DNA from: Candidatus Gastranaerophilales bacterium
Lineage (GTDB): Bacteria; Cyanobacteriota; Vampirovibrionia; Gastranaerophilales; Gastranaerophilaceae
DNA length: 36,379 bases
Direction of reading: 5' to 3'
Assembly (NCBI GenBank): GCA_947625305.1
Contig: CANQNW010000007.1
Span: forward strand, 1 to 36,379
The position numbers were made by a program, and so were the translations under genes. Within the stretch, counting starts at the first letter, position 1. The number at the start of each line of letters is the position of its first letter. The notes below the pieces were generated by a model. That model did not search any database. It saw nothing but the letters and a program-made list of their open reading frames with translations, and was not told where the DNA came from. Shown here one piece after another: positions 13,686-31,818 of this stretch.

Positions 13686-14285
13686 TTAATTCCTATAATC
13701 AATATATGTTCTATCATCTTCATCATATTTTGATGATTCAGAAGCATTCATCTGTTTTGCTTTTAGGATAGCAAGCTGATACGACTGAAAAAGTGATTGT
13801 TTTTTATTATCTCTGCCCGTAATAGAATCTGAACAAAGATAAGCCAAATAAAAGCAAAGAGCATTAACAAATTCTGATGTAAAAAAAGTTTCCGGAATTT
13901 GAGCAGAAAGTTTTCTTGTATATTCAAGTAATGCAGGATTAATATTACATAAAATAATTTTATTACCCTTAGAATCAGTAGAAATATCAAATTTTTTATA
14001 TTCTCCTGCTTTATCAAGCACATACCTTGCCGAAATACAATCATTAGGATAATCGAAAGCATATAAAAATTTTGGATTGGGCGATTTTTCTGAAACAAGA
14101 GTAAGTTCTTTAATTCTGTGTAAAAAATTCCAATTAAAGTCCTTCATAACTTGTTCAAGTGCCAAATTATAATTATTATTTAATACTGTAATTCGAGGTG
14201 TAACTTCAACGGTATTTTGAACTATAGCCGATACACCCAAATTATTCAAAGTAATATTAAAAATCATTTCTTTTGTAAAAGCCAT
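13686..14285 (-). CDS. Tail tubular protein A-like (head-tail adaptor)
   Basis: A 199-residue protein, MAFTKEMIFNITLNNLGV, then LEQVMKDFNWNFLHR and FLYAFDYPNDCISARYVL. These motifs (a short helical start, DFNW, and a Y-P-x-D-C-x segment) recur in T7 gp11-like tail adaptors that join the portal to the nozzle. The size fits the family. Its ATG overlaps the stop of the upstream 120-residue gene by one base, so it is translationally coupled. Confidence 0.82.
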   Translation of the reverse strand: MAFTKEMIFNITLNNLGVSAIVQNTVEVTPRITVLNNNYNLALEQVMKDFNWNFLHRIKELTLVSEKSPNPKFLYAFDYPNDCISARYVLDKAGEYKKFDISTDSKGNKIILCNINPALLEYTRKLSAQIPETFFTSEFVNALCFYLAYLCSDSITGRDNKKQSLFQSYQLAILKAKQMNASESSKYDEDDRTYIDYRN

Positions 14286-14647
14286 TAGAAACTAATTCCT
14301 TTTTTATTAAACTCAGCTTCAAAGAGGCTAAGAGCTTCTTTTTTACTGATTTTAGAATCATCAATTAAAATATCGTATTCAATTCCGATATCTTTATATT
14401 TTTCAAGTTTTAAGTCTAAATTTTCATTTTCAACCGGAGTTTTTCCATCAGTTGAAATAAGTGTTTTTTGTTCAAAGTTATCTTCATTTTTTTTTTGAGA
14501 TTCCGAAGCGGATATATTTAAATTTTCCGAGGAACTTTTAATTTCTTTACCCCAAACGGGGGCATTAATTCCGTCATATTCAATAATATCACCGGGTTTT
14601 CTTATACATTTTTTATAAAAAGCATCATCCGTAACTAATATTTTCAT
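14285..14647 (-). CDS. Small phage structural-region protein, unknown function
   Basis: A 120-residue protein with two parts. The N-terminus MKILVTDDAFYKKCIRKPGD, followed by IIEYDG and APVWGKE, resembles the short beta domain found in many small phage head proteins with a consensus like AFYxGxxxxPGxxxEV. The rest is acidic and low complexity, ending in a helix SKKEALSLFEAEF. It is the first gene after the 14,662 hairpin terminator, with AGAAAGG seven bases before the ATG. The role is unknown; a head-completion part is possible. Confidence 0.6.
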   Translation of the reverse strand: MKILVTDDAFYKKCIRKPGDIIEYDGINAPVWGKEIKSSSENLNISASESQKKNEDNFEQKTLISTDGKTPVENENLDLKLEKYKDIGIEYDILIDDSKISKKEALSLFEAEFNKKGISF

Positions 14648-14661
14648 ATAAACCTTTCTAA

Positions 14662-14697
14662 AAAAGAGGAGGAGATTAATTCCTCCTCTTTTAATAA
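14662..14697 (-). terminator. Strong hairpin terminator between head and tail genes
   Basis: AAAAGAGGAGGA at 14662-14673 pairs perfectly with TCCTCCTCTTTT at 14681-14692 around a 7-base loop. On the minus strand a run of T's follows. It sits in the 51-base gap between the cement protein stop and the next gene, so it probably lowers tail-gene expression relative to capsid. The stem contains GGAGGA, so in the mRNA it is also a decoy ribosome site hidden in a stem. Confidence 0.85.
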
Positions 14698-14698
14698 A

Positions 14699-15097
14699 CT
14701 AAATTTTATTGTGGTAAGACTGCTGAGCGCCATCTGAAATATAAGCAGATATTTTACCTTTGTCAGGTGCAGAACCGTCAACAGTATATTTAAGTTTAAC
14801 ATAACCCATATTTCCTGCCGGCATAAAAGCAATAGGGATTTTTTTTCCTGCTTTTAAATCGTCAGCAACGAGAGTTGCAGAAACAAGATCCTTAGCTGCT
14901 TCCATATTTTCATTTTCATCAGTTTGAACGGTTACTGTTAAACTTGTAAGATTATTAAAATCTTCATTAATTGATATTTCAAGCGGAACAGGTTTACCAA
15001 ATGCTATTTCTCGTTTTCCCAAATAAACAATGTTTTCAGAATCACAAGTTTCTGTAACAGTTTGTTTATCTGAAAAAATTAATAAAGAATCTATCAT
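14699..15097 (-). CDS. Bbp16-family capsid cement protein
   Basis: A 132-residue protein: MIDSLLIFSDKQTVTETCDS, then NIVYLGKREIAFGKPVPLEI, and further on IPIAFMPAGNMGYVKLKYTV. The pattern (a start with SDxQ-x-T, LG-x-RE, LxxGxxIPIxxxPxGxxxYVxLxY, and an end with an Ala-Tyr-Ile-Ser-Asp-Gly-like segment) is that of Bbp16-like cement proteins that trim the capsid of BPP-1-type podoviruses. It directly follows the major capsid gene with 15 bases between, as expected. Confidence 0.8.
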   Translation of the reverse strand: MIDSLLIFSDKQTVTETCDSENIVYLGKREIAFGKPVPLEISINEDFNNLTSLTVTVQTDENENMEAAKDLVSATLVADDLKAGKKIPIAFMPAGNMGYVKLKYTVDGSAPDKGKISAYISDGAQQSYHNKI

Positions 15098-15112: not shown

Positions 15113-16111
15113 CTAAGCAACAGTTTCTTCAGTTTCAAGAATTGAATCGGTACAATGAATAGGAATATTTCTGTAACAGAGAACATCCTCACCGTCAAAA
15201 TTCTTAACGGAAAGCATAACATTTTCTTTTTTAGATATTTCCGCATCCAATCTTTCCAGGAATGCAGAATTACAATAAATAAATGTTTTTTGACCTGATT
15301 TTCTAATATATTTATTTACCTTGTAGTAAGCTTTCCTCAATAAATCAATAGTATTAACAGTACCTTTTGCCAATTCATCCATATCAATATTAGCGATACG
15401 GCAAGTTGTGCGCCAATCTTTAACGGTAAGTCCTAAATCCCATTTAAAGTGATCCTGATAAACTTTTCTTTTAGCCCCATCAGAATTTGTTTCAGTAATA
15501 ATGCCGTCATTTTCATGCTTAATTCCGGCATTTGAGCCTTTAGGATAAATTAAAGCGGTATCTTGTTCAGACCATGTAATAATCCAAGCGGAAGTATTTT
15601 TAGAACCTTTACCGCCTGCATCAACAATATTGAATCCTATTTGATTTTTTTCTGCGGATAATTTTGAATATCTGACAGCCAACCCGTCAAAAGCAGCATT
15701 ATTATCTGTTTTAGAACCATAGAATATTGACTGGCAGGCAGTCTGGCTCATACCTTCAATAAATGCTTTTGATTCGCTTAATCTAAAACCTGCAGGGTCT
15801 TCTGATTTATCAACAAGGTCAACATCAACAGTTGAATATGCTTCAAGCATACCGGTTGAATCTTCGACTTGTTCGGTTTCAGATTTTGAAGTAGGTACAA
15901 ACCCGTATAATTTTCTAAAAACAGCAGCAGGAAGTCCGCTTCTGATAACAGAAATATTTTTCGTACCGTCATTGCACTGTTTAACATGTGCATCTTTAAT
16001 AACGATATTATCTTCCGATAATATTTCAGCGATATCTGTTTCAACAGAATCTTTAACTTTTCTCTTTAACAAATCAACTAAGGTTAAGTGATTTTTTGCT
16101 AATACAGCCAT
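15113..16111 (-). CDS. Major capsid protein
   Basis: A 332-residue HK97-fold-type capsid protein of the GP13-like major capsid family. Visible features: a helical start LTLVDLLKRK, SGLPAAVFRKLYGFVPTSKS, DLVDKSEDPAGFRLSESKAF, and FKWDLGLTVKDWRTTCRIAN, the last strongly conserved in this family. The C-terminus has IPIHCTDSILETE. It lies between the scaffold-like gene and the cement gene and has a strong ribosome site (GAAAGGAGAAT). No separate maturation protease is visible in the cluster. Confidence 0.88.
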   Translation of the reverse strand: MAVLAKNHLTLVDLLKRKVKDSVETDIAEILSEDNIVIKDAHVKQCNDGTKNISVIRSGLPAAVFRKLYGFVPTSKSETEQVEDSTGMLEAYSTVDVDLVDKSEDPAGFRLSESKAFIEGMSQTACQSIFYGSKTDNNAAFDGLAVRYSKLSAEKNQIGFNIVDAGGKGSKNTSAWIITWSEQDTALIYPKGSNAGIKHENDGIITETNSDGAKRKVYQDHFKWDLGLTVKDWRTTCRIANIDMDELAKGTVNTIDLLRKAYYKVNKYIRKSGQKTFIYCNSAFLERLDAEISKKENVMLSVKNFDGEDVLCYRNIPIHCTDSILETEETVA

Positions 16112-16761: not shown

Positions 16762-16995
16762 TTAGTCCTTTCTAATCATTTTTGTATATTTATCAAAATT
16801 ACTTGTTTTAATTAAATCCAAGATATAAGTTCCAAAATCTTTTTTCCCGCAGATATAATATTGTTTAAGGGTATTATCAAAATTAATACTTCTATCAAGA
16901 CAGCCGGATTGGAATATCAGATATTCAAATAATTGAAAGCCCTCAGCGGTTTCAACAACTTTATTAACAAGTTTTTTTAATTCTTCGTCATTCAT
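16762..16995 (-). CDS. Small Bbp19-like phage protein
   Basis: A 77-residue protein. FEYLIFQSGCLDRSI, then a Y-x-x-G-K-x-D-F-G segment (YYICGKKDFGTYILDLI), matches the small family seen between portal and scaffold genes of podoviruses: a Gly-x-x-x-x-Ser/Phe segment, then GKRxxGxxLL. Called Bbp19-like from memory of that family. Its role is unknown. It overlaps the portal stop by one base. Confidence 0.55.
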   Translation of the reverse strand: MNDEELKKLVNKVVETAEGFQLFEYLIFQSGCLDRSINFDNTLKQYYICGKKDFGTYILDLIKTSNFDKYTKMIRKD

Positions 16996-18635
16996 TACAA
17001 CCCGACCCTTTCAGCTAAATTAGAACCAAAAGCATCAACTCCGCCTACATTTTTAATCATTTCAGTTCCTTGTTTAAGTGTCTGCATTTGCATTTGTTGC
17101 TGCTGAAGTGCAGCTTCTTCATCTCTTTTTTGGTTAATGAGTTCAGCTGAATTTAATTGCGAAGGGTCAATATTAGCGAAATCGGCATAATCGTCAATGA
17201 TTTTATTGCCGTTTAATTTATAACGGAGTGTAGGGTCAAGTGAATTAGCTATATTGATAACGAAAGTAGTAAATCTTTCCATAGCGGAAATTTTAACAAC
17301 TTTTTGAGCCTGAGCGAGTGTAGAAACAAATTCAATTTCTATTTCCCCGCCTTGAATTTGATCGGGAGCTTCAGGAAGTATATCAACAGAAATAAATTCA
17401 TTAAAAACCCAGTCAAAAACTTTATTAAGTCCTGAGTGGATTTGTAATAAAAGAGGTGATAAAAGAACCATTTTTTCCTCTTTTAATTCATTAACTTCTG
17501 TTGCTGTTCTTCCCCGTTCAGCAGTATTTAAAATCATAGCGAACAAATCATTATAAAAATGTTCTTTAATAGTATTTTTCATAGAAATAATATTATTTTC
17601 CAGCTGTAAGATTTGCGGATTAACCTCATGTACAGGCTTTACCCCGTTGCCCTGTTCATCATCAGGAATGTAGAATTCCGGGCTTGAAGAAAGTTTTTTA
17701 TCCTTATACATAGCAGGGCCACGATATTGAGGCGAAACAATTTTTTTAACAGCTTTAGCTTCTTCCTTAATCATGGTAAATAATTGTTTTACATCAGGCA
17801 GTGCATTAATTGCAGGGCTGTCAGAGGGATAAATATCCTCACCGTTAACTTCAGATTCAAAAACCACATACGGGAATTTATCAAATCCGCTGACTGAAAG
17901 AAACTTATCATTTGATGCTTTTTCATAATAAACAGAGATATATTTTTTATTTTTAGCCCAAACTTTTTTGTTATCGTGATTAGGATTAGGCATAACAGCA
18001 TGAATTATTTCAAAATAAGAAAGGGGACTGGAGTTATAAGCTTGTTGAATACTGTTAGAAACATTATTAATTCCAAATTGTTCAACAATATTTTTAGCAG
18101 TTTCGGAATATTCTCTAAAGAGAGTATCAACATTTCCCTTATAATTTTTAGAATATCTATAAGATCCGATAGGAAGGACTTTAGCAATAAATACATCATC
18201 AAAATCAGATTCTAAAGAAAGAGTTGAAAAACCGAATGTCCCAAGTTGTTTGTAAACAAAAGGCAGTTTAGTATAAATCATAGAAGAATTAAATACATCA
18301 CGCATCAGTTTTTCAACTTCGCTGCACCAGATTTTAACTTGATAATCATTTTCCATATTGTAATTTCTAATTTTAAAGCGGAACCAATTTTGAGCGGGAT
18401 TGGTTGCGCCTGACATCATCCCCGAATAGAAATTACGAAGAGCAATAATAGGAGTGGAATCAATAATATAATTATTTCTTTTTTTATTAGTTTTATTAAC
18501 ATCCGTACTTAAAAACTTAACACTTCTAGGATAGAAATATTTAGCCAAATCTTCCAAATCGGACTTAATTTCATTAAAAGGGCCGTCAAGTTCTGCCCTT
18601 CTTAATTCAAAAAATTTAGGAGTTAATTGTTTCAC
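16995..18635 (-). CDS. Portal (head-to-tail connector) protein
   Basis: A 546-residue protein of the podovirus head-tail connector family (PF12236 type). Markers: ELRRAELDGPFNEIKSDLED and YFYPRS at the start, FYSGMMSGATNPAQNWFRFK at about 70, VLPIGSYRYSKN, and GPAMYKDKKL followed by the glutamine-rich tail QQQQMQMQTLKQ. Length and placement after TerL are as expected. It forms the 12-subunit ring through which TerL pumps DNA. Two bases separate it from the upstream 67-residue gene. Confidence 0.9.
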   Translation of the reverse strand: MKQLTPKFFELRRAELDGPFNEIKSDLEDLAKYFYPRSVKFLSTDVNKTNKKRNNYIIDSTPIIALRNFYSGMMSGATNPAQNWFRFKIRNYNMENDYQVKIWCSEVEKLMRDVFNSSMIYTKLPFVYKQLGTFGFSTLSLESDFDDVFIAKVLPIGSYRYSKNYKGNVDTLFREYSETAKNIVEQFGINNVSNSIQQAYNSSPLSYFEIIHAVMPNPNHDNKKVWAKNKKYISVYYEKASNDKFLSVSGFDKFPYVVFESEVNGEDIYPSDSPAINALPDVKQLFTMIKEEAKAVKKIVSPQYRGPAMYKDKKLSSSPEFYIPDDEQGNGVKPVHEVNPQILQLENNIISMKNTIKEHFYNDLFAMILNTAERGRTATEVNELKEEKMVLLSPLLLQIHSGLNKVFDWVFNEFISVDILPEAPDQIQGGEIEIEFVSTLAQAQKVVKISAMERFTTFVINIANSLDPTLRYKLNGNKIIDDYADFANIDPSQLNSAELINQKRDEEAALQQQQMQMQTLKQGTEMIKNVGGVDAFGSNLAERVGL

Positions 18636-18861: not shown

Positions 18862-20193
18862 TTAATTAAACGGGTCAAAATCTGTATTAACGAAAGTATC
18901 TTTTTCGTTTTTATGGGAAGAAAACATATAAGAATAATGATTAATGGCATAAATACCCATCATTAAAGCATCTGCATAATCCGGGGATTCGCCTTGTTCT
19001 TTTCTAATTTCATCTTTAGATTGGATATAAACTTTACCGTCTCTTTTAGTTTCAGCTTTTATATATTCTAATTGAGTAAGAGTTTTTTGGTGAGTAATTT
19101 TAAGGAAGTTATTGTCAATAAAATCTTTTAAATCCAGATAACCTTCGGCCCTTTGATTAGCTGCATTACAGCGAGGATTTTTTACTTTTCCCGCTCCTCT
19201 AAAAACAACAACTTTATCAGTAGCATTTTTAACTGCGACAGCGACAGCATAGCCGACACCATCCCCATCAATTGAAATAATAAAAGGATTATAAGTTTTA
19301 GACAAATTAATTATTTTACCGATAGTAACATCAGTATCAGGTTCAGACCAGTCAACAGTAAAGACATCTTGCCAAGTTGTACGATTAACTTGTTTAATAA
19401 ACTTAGCGACATTCATATCAGCACCGGAGCCTGCAATATCTACTGAAAGAACAGAAAAAAGATTATTTTCACTATCAGAATAAGGGGTTAATTTTTTAGC
19501 TTCATCCAATTTAGATATAGCGAATAAAGCATTTTTAGATTTATCCATTGGAAGGCCCTTCCAAATATGAAGATAATCCGAAATATTTTTAGCCTTACAT
19601 TTTTCAGCCTCATTAATAAGCACTTCCGGACAAAATGGATTTTCATCATAATTTATTGTAATATGCATACAATCTTTATCATCAATACATTGAACATAAA
19701 CAGGGTCGTTTCTAAAAAGTCGATTCATGGTAAAGAATAAAATCGAATTATTTTTTCTAATTGTCGGGATAATGACATCCAAAGTAGGTTTAGTAATAGC
19801 CTGTGCTTCATCAATCCAAAGGATATCAACCCCCTCAATTCCTTTAATATTAATTTTCCCTTGTTCCCGAAGTCCTTTAAAAATAAAGCTGGAATTAGTA
19901 GTATTATGAATAATGCAATCTTTTTTAGAAGTAAAATTAAGGTTAAATTCATCAATTCTATCATCAAGTAAAGTTTTAACTGAATCGGAAATCGTATTTT
20001 GTATTTCACGACCGCAGCAAACTCTGACTTTTCTTTGTTCTGCGATCCAAAGCAGGATACGAGCAATACTTTGAGATTTAGCCCCACCTCTGCCTCCGTC
20101 AATTAAAAAGATATGGTAATTATTAAGATTAAAAATAATAGGTAAAAGCTTCGGAGGGATATCCAGAATTTTAGGCAGAACTATTTGCGACAT
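18862..20193 (-). CDS. terL: Terminase large subunit
   Basis: DNA-packaging motor ATPase and nuclease. Walker A is GGRGGAKS (residues 37-44 if counted from the upstream ATG at 20205), and Walker B is ILWIDEAQ with the DE at about 132-133. The nuclease part shows SVDIAGSGADMNVAKF, SIDGDGVGYAVA and the C-terminal SPDYADALMMGIYAI, where acidic residues bind metal. I prefer the ATG at 20193 (MSQIVLPKIL) because GGGTG lies just before it. The start at 20205 has no ribosome site but cannot be excluded. The gene overlaps the end of terS, so the two are coupled. Confidence 0.93.
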   Translation of the reverse strand: MSQIVLPKILDIPPKLLPIIFNLNNYHIFLIDGGRGGAKSQSIARILLWIAEQRKVRVCCGREIQNTISDSVKTLLDDRIDEFNLNFTSKKDCIIHNTTNSSFIFKGLREQGKINIKGIEGVDILWIDEAQAITKPTLDVIIPTIRKNNSILFFTMNRLFRNDPVYVQCIDDKDCMHITINYDENPFCPEVLINEAEKCKAKNISDYLHIWKGLPMDKSKNALFAISKLDEAKKLTPYSDSENNLFSVLSVDIAGSGADMNVAKFIKQVNRTTWQDVFTVDWSEPDTDVTIGKIINLSKTYNPFIISIDGDGVGYAVAVAVKNATDKVVVFRGAGKVKNPRCNAANQRAEGYLDLKDFIDNNFLKITHQKTLTQLEYIKAETKRDGKVYIQSKDEIRKEQGESPDYADALMMGIYAINHYSYMFSSHKNEKDTFVNTDFDPFN

Positions 20194-20656
20194 CTTCACC
20201 CACATTCAATTTTAAATTTTTACCGTCATACTGAACACTTCCCATGTTAATAACGAGATTAGATTTTGATGAATCTTTTTCATCAAACAAGCCTTTTATT
20301 TTGCATTTAGTATCAATACAACCTTTAGCGACACTATAAGTTTTAAAAGAGTTCATACACATTTCCTGAAGTTTATTTAATTCATTAAAAGCATCAGAAA
20401 CAGAATAATGAAATTCCTCATCAATATTTTGTTGTGCTTTTTTCTTATAGTAATTAATCCATGGGGTAATCTTAGGGTTTTTTAATAATCTTGAAGCTTC
20501 AACATTAACGGATTCTTCAGACATCTTCAAAGCATTATAAGCGAATCGATAAGCTTCTGAAGCATTATTACCGTTAATAACATATCTCATAACGAAAATT
20601 TTCTGCTTATCTGTTAATTTAGGCAAATCAGGAAAATCGGGAAAAGTATCAAACAT
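20171..20656 (-). CDS. terS: Terminase small subunit
   Basis: A 161-residue protein of the terminase-2 type: LTDKQKIFVMRYVINGNNAS, EAYRFAYNA and EASRLLKNPKITPWINYY form the N-terminal DNA-binding helix-turn-helix and oligomerisation region. It recognises the packaging site and loads TerL. The gene lies directly upstream of terL and overlaps it, and follows the zinc-ribbon gene by two bases. Confidence 0.85.
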   Translation of the reverse strand: MFDTFPDFPDLPKLTDKQKIFVMRYVINGNNASEAYRFAYNALKMSEESVNVEASRLLKNPKITPWINYYKKKAQQNIDEEFHYSVSDAFNELNKLQEMCMNSFKTYSVAKGCIDTKCKIKGLFDEKDSSKSNLVINMGSVQYDGKNLKLNVGEDVANSSA

Positions 20657-20658
20657 AG

Positions 20659-21054
20659 TTATTTTGCTTTAATTTTTTTTACTATTTTTTTATTACCGAA
20701 GAAATCAGAGGAATACTGTCTAACTTGAGTAACTTCCCCTTTCTTATTAACAATTTCTTTATTCACACCATAAATCCAGCCGAATAAATCAGATACATCA
20801 ATTTTAAAGTTTTGAGAAACTAATCTTTTTCTTTCTCTGTAAAGAGTTTTTACTGCATTAATACCTGAAATATTCTTACTAATAAATACTTTATTATCAG
20901 ATATTCTTTTTTCAACGAGAGTAATAATTTGTTCTTTGCAAACAGGACAAACAGCATAAATAAGTTTTCTGGAGGTAAAATTATTTATATCTTTTAAAAA
21001 CCAGACTTCAACCTTAGAAATATTTTTTTTGCAGTGGTTACAAAAAATGTTCAT
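20659..21054 (-). CDS. Zinc-ribbon protein, first gene of the late operon
   Basis: A 131-residue basic protein. C5-x2-C8 (FCNHCKKN) and C36-x2-C39 (VCPVCKEQ) form a probable zinc knuckle pair. A helical middle (NAVKTLYRERKRL) and a conserved-looking WIYGVNKEIVNKKGE follow, with a lysine-rich end. No known family recognised. Being first in the 20-kb late operon, behind a structured leader, it could be a late regulator or a DNA/RNA-binding packaging helper; both are inference. GAGGG precedes the ATG. Confidence 0.65.
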   Translation of the reverse strand: MNIFCNHCKKNISKVEVWFLKDINNFTSRKLIYAVCPVCKEQIITLVEKRISDNKVFISKNISGINAVKTLYRERKRLVSQNFKIDVSDLFGWIYGVNKEIVNKKGEVTQVRQYSSDFFGNKKIVKKIKAK

Positions 21055-21215
21055 AATCCCTCAAAAAGGTACAGTTTACCCCAGTACACCGATAGAGAGT
21101 AACCGTCCGTCCCCGTTTGGCAGCAAGCCAACGTGTATCATCTATCTACTCGTTGAGCGAAATTAGTCTGTTCGCAAACTTTGCACTTGCGAAACAGATT
21201 ATCTTCACTTTACAT
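21055..21215 (-). ncRNA. Structured 5' leader of the late operon
   Basis: About 160 bases between the late promoter and its first gene are clearly richer in G and C than the surroundings and hold several hairpins: TCTGTTCGCAA/TTGCGAAACAGA at 21167-21198 (one bulged base), TTGGC/GCCAA at 21117-21131, and a short GTAC stem (21069-21087) followed on the minus strand by five T's just before the gene. Further short segments (GAGTA, GATAG and TACAC with later TACTC, CTATC and GTGTA) allow alternative pairing. No known riboswitch recognised. It may be an attenuator or antiterminator RNA. Confidence 0.5.
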
Positions 21216-21221
21216 ATTTGG

Positions 21222-21249
21222 AGTATAAATTGTTTTTTAAAAAAATCAA
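21222..21249 (-). promoter_or_regulatory. Candidate late promoter
   Basis: On the minus strand TTGATT (21249-21244) and TATACT (21227-21222) are separated by 16 bases. Transcription would start near 21,214 and read into the structured leader and the late genes. It is close to sigma-70 consensus in very AT-rich DNA, so moderate confidence. Confidence 0.5.
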
Positions 21250-30155: not shown

Positions 30156-31775
30156 ATGAAATCAGCAGTATTATATATTCGTGTTTCAACTGAAGAACAA
30201 CGAAAGTTTGGCTTCAGTATTGAAACTCAAACACAAACTTGTCTTGAATTTGCACAAAGAGAAGGTTTTTGTGTGCGAAGAATCTTTACTGAAGACGAAG
30301 GGTTAAGTGCAGGTAATCTTAACCGCCCTGAAGCACAAAAAATGTTGAAATACTGCAATGATAAAAATAATAAAATTAATGCAATTATTGTTTGGAGATT
30401 AGAACGACTTTCAAGATTTAATGTAGATTATCATGGCACAATTAGACCGATTTTAATAAACCGCAATATCAAACTTCTTTCGGCAACTGAATTTAATGCT
30501 GATACCATAGAAGGCGAATATATGCGTAATATAATGATGTGCAATGCCGAATATGAATTGTCTTTGATTCGTTTCAGGACAAAAGAAAACATGAAAACTA
30601 TCGCAAAAGGCGGAAGACGACCTGCAAAAGCACCTATCGGTTATTTGAATTATCATGAAAAAGTTGATGAAAAAACTATAAAAAAATATATTATTGTTGA
30701 TGATAAAATTGCACCCTTTATAAAACGTGCATTTGAACTTTATTCAACTGGAATGTATTCATTTGAAACTTTGGGTGATTATCTTTATCTTGAAGGTTTT
30801 AAAAATCCAAAAACAGGCGAAAAATATCCTGCAAGAAAATTTGAATGGTTATTACATAACCCGTTTTATATAGGCAAATTTACATGGGGTGGTGAATTAT
30901 ACGAAGGAAATCATACACCGATTATTTCAAAAGAATTATTTTACAGGGTGCAAGCAATGTTTGAAAATATTGACCGAACAAAAAAGCACGATGTTCAATT
31001 TGCATATACCGGCTTAATAAAGTGTGCTGATTGTGATTGTTACTATACCGCACAATTTAAACGCGGAAAGAATAAACGCGGTCATTATGTTTATTACAGT
31101 TGTTCAAATTCAAAACACTTTCATAAAAAATTAAAATACTATCGTGAAGAATATTTTGATAATACTTTTGCAAACATTCTTGAAACAATACATATTAAAA
31201 AAGAACATATCGAACGATTAAGAGTTCTTGCAAGTGATTATTTGAAAGAATTTAGCGAATATGAAAAGAAAACAACTTCAGATATAAGAAAGCAAATAGA
31301 TACTCTTTCAAAGAGAATAAAGAACAGTTATATTGATAAACTTGAAGGAAGATTACCTGCAAGTATGAGTGAAGAAGAATTTAATTCAATGCACAGGGAA
31401 TGGCAAGAAGAAAAAGACCGTCTTTTAATGAAATTGGAAGAAGGTAATATTAGCACAAAATTTGTTTACAACAGAATTGACCAAATTTTAAAATTTTCAG
31501 AAAATTTGCCCGAGTTGTTTTTAAAAGGCACTCCCGAAGAAAAGAAATTAATTATAACAACAATGACAAAATCAATTAAATTTGACGGTGAAAATTTAAT
31601 TGTAAATCTCAAAGATACTTTCAAGGCATTACAAAATGTTAAGAAAACTGCTAAAAATACCCTTAGAAATGACAACCTTAGAACCCCTTACAATTCAAGT
31701 ATAATAACAAAAAAAGACGTTTCAGAAACGTCTTTTGAAAATGGGGCGGGCAGTGGGATTCGAACCCACGCATAA
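30156..31775 (+). CDS. Large serine recombinase (phage integrase)
   Basis: A 539-residue site-specific recombinase. The resolvase-type catalytic domain (about 1-150) has YIRVSTEEQ with nucleophile S11 and later VWRLERLSRF. A recombinase domain follows (RRPAKAPIGYLNY, HNPFYIGKF). The zinc ribbon is around C290, C293, C295 (KCADCDCYYT) with YYSCSNSKHFH, and a coiled-coil stretch follows. It integrates and excises the prophage between short attP and attB sites. No ribosome site is seen before the ATG. The frame runs through a hairpin and into the tRNA-His gene, ending GAGSGIRTHA; that tail is tRNA sequence read as protein, so the C-terminus in free phage would differ. Confidence 0.93.
   Translation: MKSAVLYIRVSTEEQRKFGFSIETQTQTCLEFAQREGFCVRRIFTEDEGLSAGNLNRPEAQKMLKYCNDKNNKINAIIVWRLERLSRFNVDYHGTIRPILINRNIKLLSATEFNADTIEGEYMRNIMMCNAEYELSLIRFRTKENMKTIAKGGRRPAKAPIGYLNYHEKVDEKTIKKYIIVDDKIAPFIKRAFELYSTGMYSFETLGDYLYLEGFKNPKTGEKYPARKFEWLLHNPFYIGKFTWGGELYEGNHTPIISKELFYRVQAMFENIDRTKKHDVQFAYTGLIKCADCDCYYTAQFKRGKNKRGHYVYYSCSNSKHFHKKLKYYREEYFDNTFANILETIHIKKEHIERLRVLASDYLKEFSEYEKKTTSDIRKQIDTLSKRIKNSYIDKLEGRLPASMSEEEFNSMHREWQEEKDRLLMKLEEGNISTKFVYNRIDQILKFSENLPELFLKGTPEEKKLIITTMTKSIKFDGENLIVNLKDTFKALQNVKKTAKNTLRNDNLRTPYNSSIITKKDVSETSFENGAGSGIRTHA
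31640..31745. other. Probable right attachment junction (attR region)
   Basis: Somewhere here phage DNA (recombinase) changes to host DNA (tRNA-His). The hairpin at 31712-31736 suits tRNA-His as its own terminator, which would put the crossover left of it. No second copy of the tRNA end exists in the window to fix the core. Confidence 0.45.
31705..31736 (-). terminator. Terminator of tRNA-His
   Basis: AAAAGACGTTT (31712-31722) pairs with AAACGTCTTTT (31726-31736) around a 3-base loop. On the minus strand seven T's follow. It lies just after the tRNA 3' end and also inside the recombinase reading frame. Confidence 0.8.
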
Positions 31776-31818
31776 TGGAACCACAATCCATGGTCTTAAC
31801 CACTTGACGATGCCCGCC
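31742..31818 (-). tRNA. tRNA-His (GTG anticodon)
   Basis: The minus strand gives an 8-pair acceptor stem with the extra G-1 opposite C73 that marks tRNA-His. The anticodon loop is TTGTGGT, the T arm is GTGGG-TTCGAAT-CCCAC, and CCA is encoded (31744-31742). The gene is intact, so phage insertion did not break it. Confidence 0.96.

Follow-up and report, generated by a model that had tools for sequence, protein, structure and literature searches.

The window, meaning the whole stretch of 36,379 bases that was analyzed (G000:C7:1-36379), lies on a contig of 103 kb in a Gastranaerophilales genome; the GTDB contigs that supplied relatives were titled Candidatus Gastranaerophilales. It looks like an integrated podovirus-like prophage, since a large serine recombinase gene (30156-31775) terminates within a tRNA-His gene (31742-31817). 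The overlap between the end of the recombinase gene and the tRNA gene (30156-31817) marks a probable integration site. A search of a phage DNA collection returned no match.

A 20-kb operon on the minus strand, running from 21054 to about 628, encodes a zinc-ribbon protein, the small and large terminase subunits, portal, capsid (GP7), nozzle-like and T7 gp14-like proteins, and an M23 peptidase protein. Its leader (minus strand, ~21215-21055) occupies the interval from the promoter (21249-21222) to the first ATG (21054). A bidirectional terminator-like hairpin (14666-14688) was found within the operon, between the open reading frames 14285-14647 and 14699-15097. The relevant features, with the basis of each assignment, were the following:

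21222..21249, minus strand: sigma70-like late promoter TTGATT-16-TATACT, with a predicted start near 21215 (sequence)
21156..21209, minus strand: hairpin P0, AGTGAAG...TTTCGCT, with inner CTGTTTCGCAA/TTTGCGAACAG (fold probabilities, shuffles)
21091..21146, minus strand: domain closed by helix P2, GATAGA (21146-21141) with TCTATC (21096-21091) (comparison with relatives)
21117..21131, minus strand: hairpin P3, TTGGC-TTGCT-GCCAA (comparison, fold)
21108..21115, minus strand: CG-GGGA-CG, a possible GNRA-capped mini hairpin (sequence)
21063..21090, minus strand: weak terminator-like stem GGTGTAC..GTACC followed by TTTTT (sequence)
21058..21062, minus strand: Shine-Dalgarno sequence GAGGG of the zinc-ribbon gene (sequence)
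20659..21054, minus strand: zinc-ribbon protein, 131 aa, first gene of the late operon (family search, AlphaFold, weak zf-LITAF-like match)
20171..20656, minus strand: terminase small subunit (Terminase_2, E 1.5e-10)
18862..20205, minus strand: terminase large subunit (Terminase_3, E 5.4e-25)
16995..18635, minus strand: portal / head-tail connector (PF12236, E 1.3e-109)
15113..16111, minus strand: major capsid protein, GP7 family (PF20911, E 1.6e-108)

Divergent from the late operon, the plus-strand segment 21346-21496 carries a strong promoter, TTGAAA-16-TATAAT (11/12), after which a structured RNA of ~110 nt (z -3.5) ends in a hairpin and T-run. This is a candidate small RNA, and DNA resembling it is present in several other genomes, partly repeated.

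A preliminary description of this DNA had reported a late promoter followed by a GC-rich leader in otherwise AT-rich DNA, and both were confirmed. The promoter lies at 21249-21222, and the GC content of 21055-21214 was 44.4% compared to 29.8% window-wide, a value reached by only 0.7% of 160-nt windows. A comparable AT tract and a TTTAAACT..CAAAATGTAAA start region were observed in the late promoter region of relatives. Upstream of the prophage late promoters in L111-L117, TTAG/TCAA tetranucleotide repeats were also noted, together with a shared TTTTTTAAAAAA tract that is a possible activator site.

With an MFE of -42.7, the leader ranked in the lowest 0.3% among equal-length minus-strand windows. 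This extreme value was due mainly to base composition, since the stability of the whole leader was unremarkable against dinucleotide shuffles (z -0.89). The two good hairpins described earlier were only partly substantiated: both regions exist, P0 having an outer stem with pair probabilities of 0.85-1.0 and an inner hairpin with z -2.3 (core alone), but the 21146-21091 domain (folded as 21160-21084) yielded z 0.35. Alternative pairings had rightly been anticipated, P2 being one among several in the isolated window fold, with a probability of only 0.15, while P3 was likely there (0.29-0.84). The stem before five T's is likewise present as sequence, but it is weak, as the fold of 21098-21070, a stretch that omits the stem's last three bases, gave -3.4 kcal/mol and z 0.10, and it was not conserved among the relatives' leaders. 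Because the shuffle z-score, the 21146-21091 domain and the T-run stem are all weak, the case for leader structure rests on comparison and not on energy. None of the Rfam 15 covariance models matched the leader above the gathering threshold, the only match being tRNA-His elsewhere. A leader peptide, MIHVGLLPNGDGRLLSIGVLG at 21140, was rejected, as L033 was judged by eye to contain no equivalent reading frame.

Leaders were collected upstream of the zinc-ribbon/small-terminase gene pair in prophages, IMG/VR contigs and host genomes, with upstream DNA taken for about 100 zinc-ribbon relatives. The protein family was present in 206 of the 383 genomes of the order, mostly in single copy, and on several IMG/VR contigs; some members are without the cysteines. 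AlphaFold predicted a small, beta-rich zinc-ribbon protein with a pLDDT of 88.7. Its best match in the Foldseek search of the PDB had E 0.2, and VIA-align gave a best Z of 5.6, with weak WGR/Sm-like structural neighbors. No likeness to known antiterminators was observed in these structure searches.

Nearly all collected upstream regions contained a conserved, structured-looking leader, although its class varied. Assigned partly by eye, from alignments made by sequence on MAG contigs, the classes were the genus type (the window's genus, g1), the g22 type, the g25 type, and prophage classes A (the window), B and C/D. Class tracked the element or protein type and not the host: three classes accompany the different copies in genome G003, and class C/D leaders were found in at least four genera. 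In genus g22, the leader was present in 28/28 genomes, nearly always as one copy, and the control had no matches. The class-A motif yielded three matches in the 383 genomes, all upstream of a zinc-ribbon gene. A CAGGGNTARTRTG motif, resembling a Shine-Dalgarno sequence plus start codon, was found downstream of many leaders, while a U-run after the element was absent in most leaders other than that of the window. A mini-ORF after the element was rejected as a conserved feature, its start codon being missing at several loci.

It was evident that in two classes, the genus type and C/D, the helices carry compensatory changes far above controls. In genus-type leaders (helices P1 and P2, with P2b and a hairpin that varies), 97.2% of cells were paired and five pairs had both sides changed (0/500 shuffles), and the signal collapsed when helix partners were slid. 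With second-site copies and L114/L174 included and the alignment fitted to the model's own structure, covariation was 0.380 compared to 0.193 in the control (0/500 shuffles). A covariance model, R1, was derived from the genus (host) leaders; in a tree-aware simulation of its matches, the highest-ranking of the 1,653 pairs fell within the structure (E 0.07), and single-pair significance in genus-type leaders is modest. For class C3, the best pair had E 0.08. Class C/D leaders were 97.1% paired, with both sides changed in 11 of 14 pairs and a covariation of 0.721 compared to 0.246 in the control (0/500 shuffles), the pairs having been picked from the tested sequences themselves, which biases these values towards structure. 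Internal-loop sequences were conserved within the covarying helices, namely AGUA opposite GAA, and GNRA loops. An H-type pseudoknot in the genus leader (GACTT/AAGTC) was discarded for its five C-A mismatches; a nested GATTT/AAGTC helix fits. RNA structure is preserved in related leaders, which accompany the zinc-ribbon/small-terminase pair.

Class A consists of the window leader, L117, L116, L221, L222 and L103 and, more distantly, of L033 and L111, which lack the full sequence frame. The window leader has P2 with compensatory changes, the GTAGATA..TATCGGTGTA frame and the zinc-ribbon gene next to it. For P2, the one helix tested, 93.6% of cells were paired in 8 sequences and covariation was 0.351 compared to 0.216 in the control (1/500 shuffles), with one misaligned row counting against structure; counterparts in relatives read GATAAG/CTTATC, GATAGG/CCTATC and GGACAGG/CCTGTTC. 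Counterparts of P3 occur at the equivalent position in L117 and L033 (CTGAC/GTCAA and TGCGA/TCGCA), and across three sequences 14/15 were paired, compared to 0.47 with strands swapped between elements. Hairpins of different sequence were seen by eye at the P0 position in L117, L111, L221 and L222. GGGGAC was recurrent across many leaders, and the class C/D stem equivalent to the 21108..21115 mini hairpin, of 3 bp, covaries (columns 60-62/67-69). Judged from these sequence comparisons, the support for structure in the window leader is real but limited. A covariation check in homologues, as proposed in the preliminary description, did yield covarying pairs, the support from class A, that of the window, being modest. 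The suggestion of a regulatory RNA connected with the zinc-ribbon gene was also supported, in that the leaders are structured, two classes covary strongly, and all g22 genomes carry one.

Kinship among the classes was examined with R1 and with R2, a model from prophage class C/D leaders. Because R1 found the prophage leaders L174 and L114 (E 0.001-0.003) and R2 found L113 (1.6e-11) and L295 (9e-4), a second-site leader of the host that R1 also matched, the host-cluster and prophage leaders of the R1/R2 classes are likely related. The window leader gave no match to either model at E<=1, so its kinship rests on position and architecture; it would be grouped with the other classes on the strength of where it lies, the genes beside it, the GGGGAC motif and a closing helix that encloses an inner hairpin. 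By position, it belongs to a set of leader RNAs heading zinc-ribbon/TerS/TerL operons. This set was previously unlisted and spans podovirus-like prophages and, in Gastranaerophilales, a phage-like cluster fixed in the chromosome.

Almost all species of the host genus carry a prophage-like cluster with the leader at its head, located at a single chromosomal site (rlmH); rlmH was upstream of the main cluster at 30/34 tested loci. The single locus examined in full, L267 (G021:C3:121000-140900), had TerS, TerL, portal and capsid genes, and no integrase was found there. The rlmH-linked cluster, with zinc ribbon, TerS, TerL, portal and capsid, occurs genus-wide (L267, L265 on G033:C1, and L064-L099). 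It resembles a gene transfer agent (GTA) or a domesticated prophage, for which it is a candidate; in the open-access subset of the literature, no report of a GTA from Gastranaerophilales was found.

R1 also matched about ten loci in the genus away from the zinc-ribbon gene, a count obtained with this single model and rough E-values. Pfam identified LPD3, a papain-fold glutamine deamidase toxin domain and phage lysozyme among the second-site genes, and a radical SAM protein at one locus. Several second-site proteins and main-cluster proteins of G033 and G004 share a QRRA(D/E)LLYP-like motif; it lies near the N-terminus of differing proteins (LPD3, deamidase toxin, others; L286-L295, L265, L095) and may be a cargo or packaging signal. 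At both genus zinc-ribbon loci and second sites, P1 begins a few nt past the predicted -10 box, while the distance from the RNA to the downstream gene start is 9-61 nt at the former and about 100-210 nt at the latter, where the adjacent start codon was GCG in 3/10. In the genome that contains the window, R1 gave only weak matches at second sites (E 0.27-0.87), and a weak match on contig C11 sits in an apparently unrelated stretch. The recurrence of the leader at toxin-like and lysozyme loci would suggest a multi-locus regulon.

The preferred reading, at somewhat less than even confidence, is that the leader acts in cis as a recognition element at the 5' terminus of the late transcript, serving processive antitermination in the manner of put or nut sites. 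The leader would be transcribed from the promoter at 21249-21222 and recognized, as it emerges, by RNA polymerase together with an element-encoded or host factor, for which the first-encoded zinc-ribbon protein is the obvious candidate; the polymerase would thereby read through the long operon. A transcription-level role is favored because the position of P1 is fixed near the -10 box while the distance to the gene start varies; such a role, antitermination being one example, is also indicated by the shared transcript-start position, the recurrence at several loci, the gene distance at second sites and the terminator-like hairpin inside the operon. Against this stand the zinc-ribbon protein, unlike any known antiterminator in the searches made, the failure of R1 and R2 to find the window leader, and the CAGGGNTARTRTG motif after many leaders, which could mean translational control. 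Such control is the main rival and nearly as good: the zinc-ribbon protein, or another element protein, would bind the leader and repress or activate translation of its own message, in the manner of ribosomal protein leaders or Mu Com; this is possible rather than probable. The leader lies directly upstream of the zinc-ribbon ribosome site at most loci, its class follows protein type rather than host, a Shine-Dalgarno-like motif follows the element, and a small, beta-rich zinc ribbon with weak WGR/Sm-like neighbors would suit such binding. However, the remote gene starts and GCG codons at second sites fit poorly, as do the family members lacking cysteines and the inconsistent occlusion of the Shine-Dalgarno sequence. 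Sequestration of that sequence was rejected, its accessibility being overall no different from that in shuffled leaders and the window values varying with the length of transcript folded.

The other explanations carry far less weight. A 5' mRNA stabilizer, in which a 5'-terminal stem slows decay without a dedicated regulator, agrees with the start of genus-leader P1 at or beside the predicted transcript start, but invariant internal-loop letters and class-specific elaboration would imply specific recognition, which renders it improbable. These same conserved loops could instead point to a riboswitch or another ligand- or temperature-sensing leader; this is quite improbable, given neither a conserved terminator or Shine-Dalgarno switch nor an Rfam match, classes that differ widely among the elements of one host, and a gene context of phage packaging. 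Least probable is a transcription attenuator with its terminator just upstream of the first gene, an option raised in the earlier account. The GGTGTAC..GTACC stem and five T's speak for it, but their folding energy is that of shuffled sequence, most other leaders are without a U-run, and no conserved terminator follows the element, so that the option was not upheld.

Under the antitermination reading, a wider model can be put forward tentatively: the same RNA may head both a podovirus-like particle cluster passed on vertically and separate loci, several with toxin-like or lysozyme cargo, all co-switched by RNA-dependent antitermination, while prophages carry diverged versions. If this is true, a phage-like particle system of an uncultured gut lineage is under an RNA element common to main cluster, cargo loci and prophages, and the leader provides a sequence handle for locating all genes of that system. 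It would also offer a model of RNA-level antitermination or autoregulation beyond the classical coliphages.

Among known systems, the put RNAs of HK022 represent RNA-encoded antitermination; put sites act at the start of early operons and require no phage-encoded protein. As in the leaders described here, a structured RNA lies at the phage transcript start of more than one operon, and, as in the model proposed, long-range transcription requires it. In contrast to put, the window leader heads a late operon, and its function is predicted. The Com protein of phage Mu is a small zinc-binding protein that exerts translational control of the next gene, mom. Both cases combine a small zinc-binding protein of phage origin with structure around a translation start, but Com controls mom, whereas the window leader lies ahead of the zinc-ribbon gene itself.

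Ribosomal protein leaders, such as that bound by L10(L12)4 on rplJL, are similar in that a structured leader heads a protein-coding operon and, putatively in the present case, binds a product of the operon (PMC4538822). In Caulobacter, GafYZ controls the GTA cluster by antitermination, with GafZ acting via a DNA element between -35 and -10 (PMC11150451). That system shares with the present one a chromosomal cluster of phage type and, as would follow from the reading preferred here, terminators within the cluster, joint control of accessory genes at other sites, and antitermination; it differs in using a DNA site and not an RNA after the start site, and it belongs to an unrelated lineage (PMC11150451).
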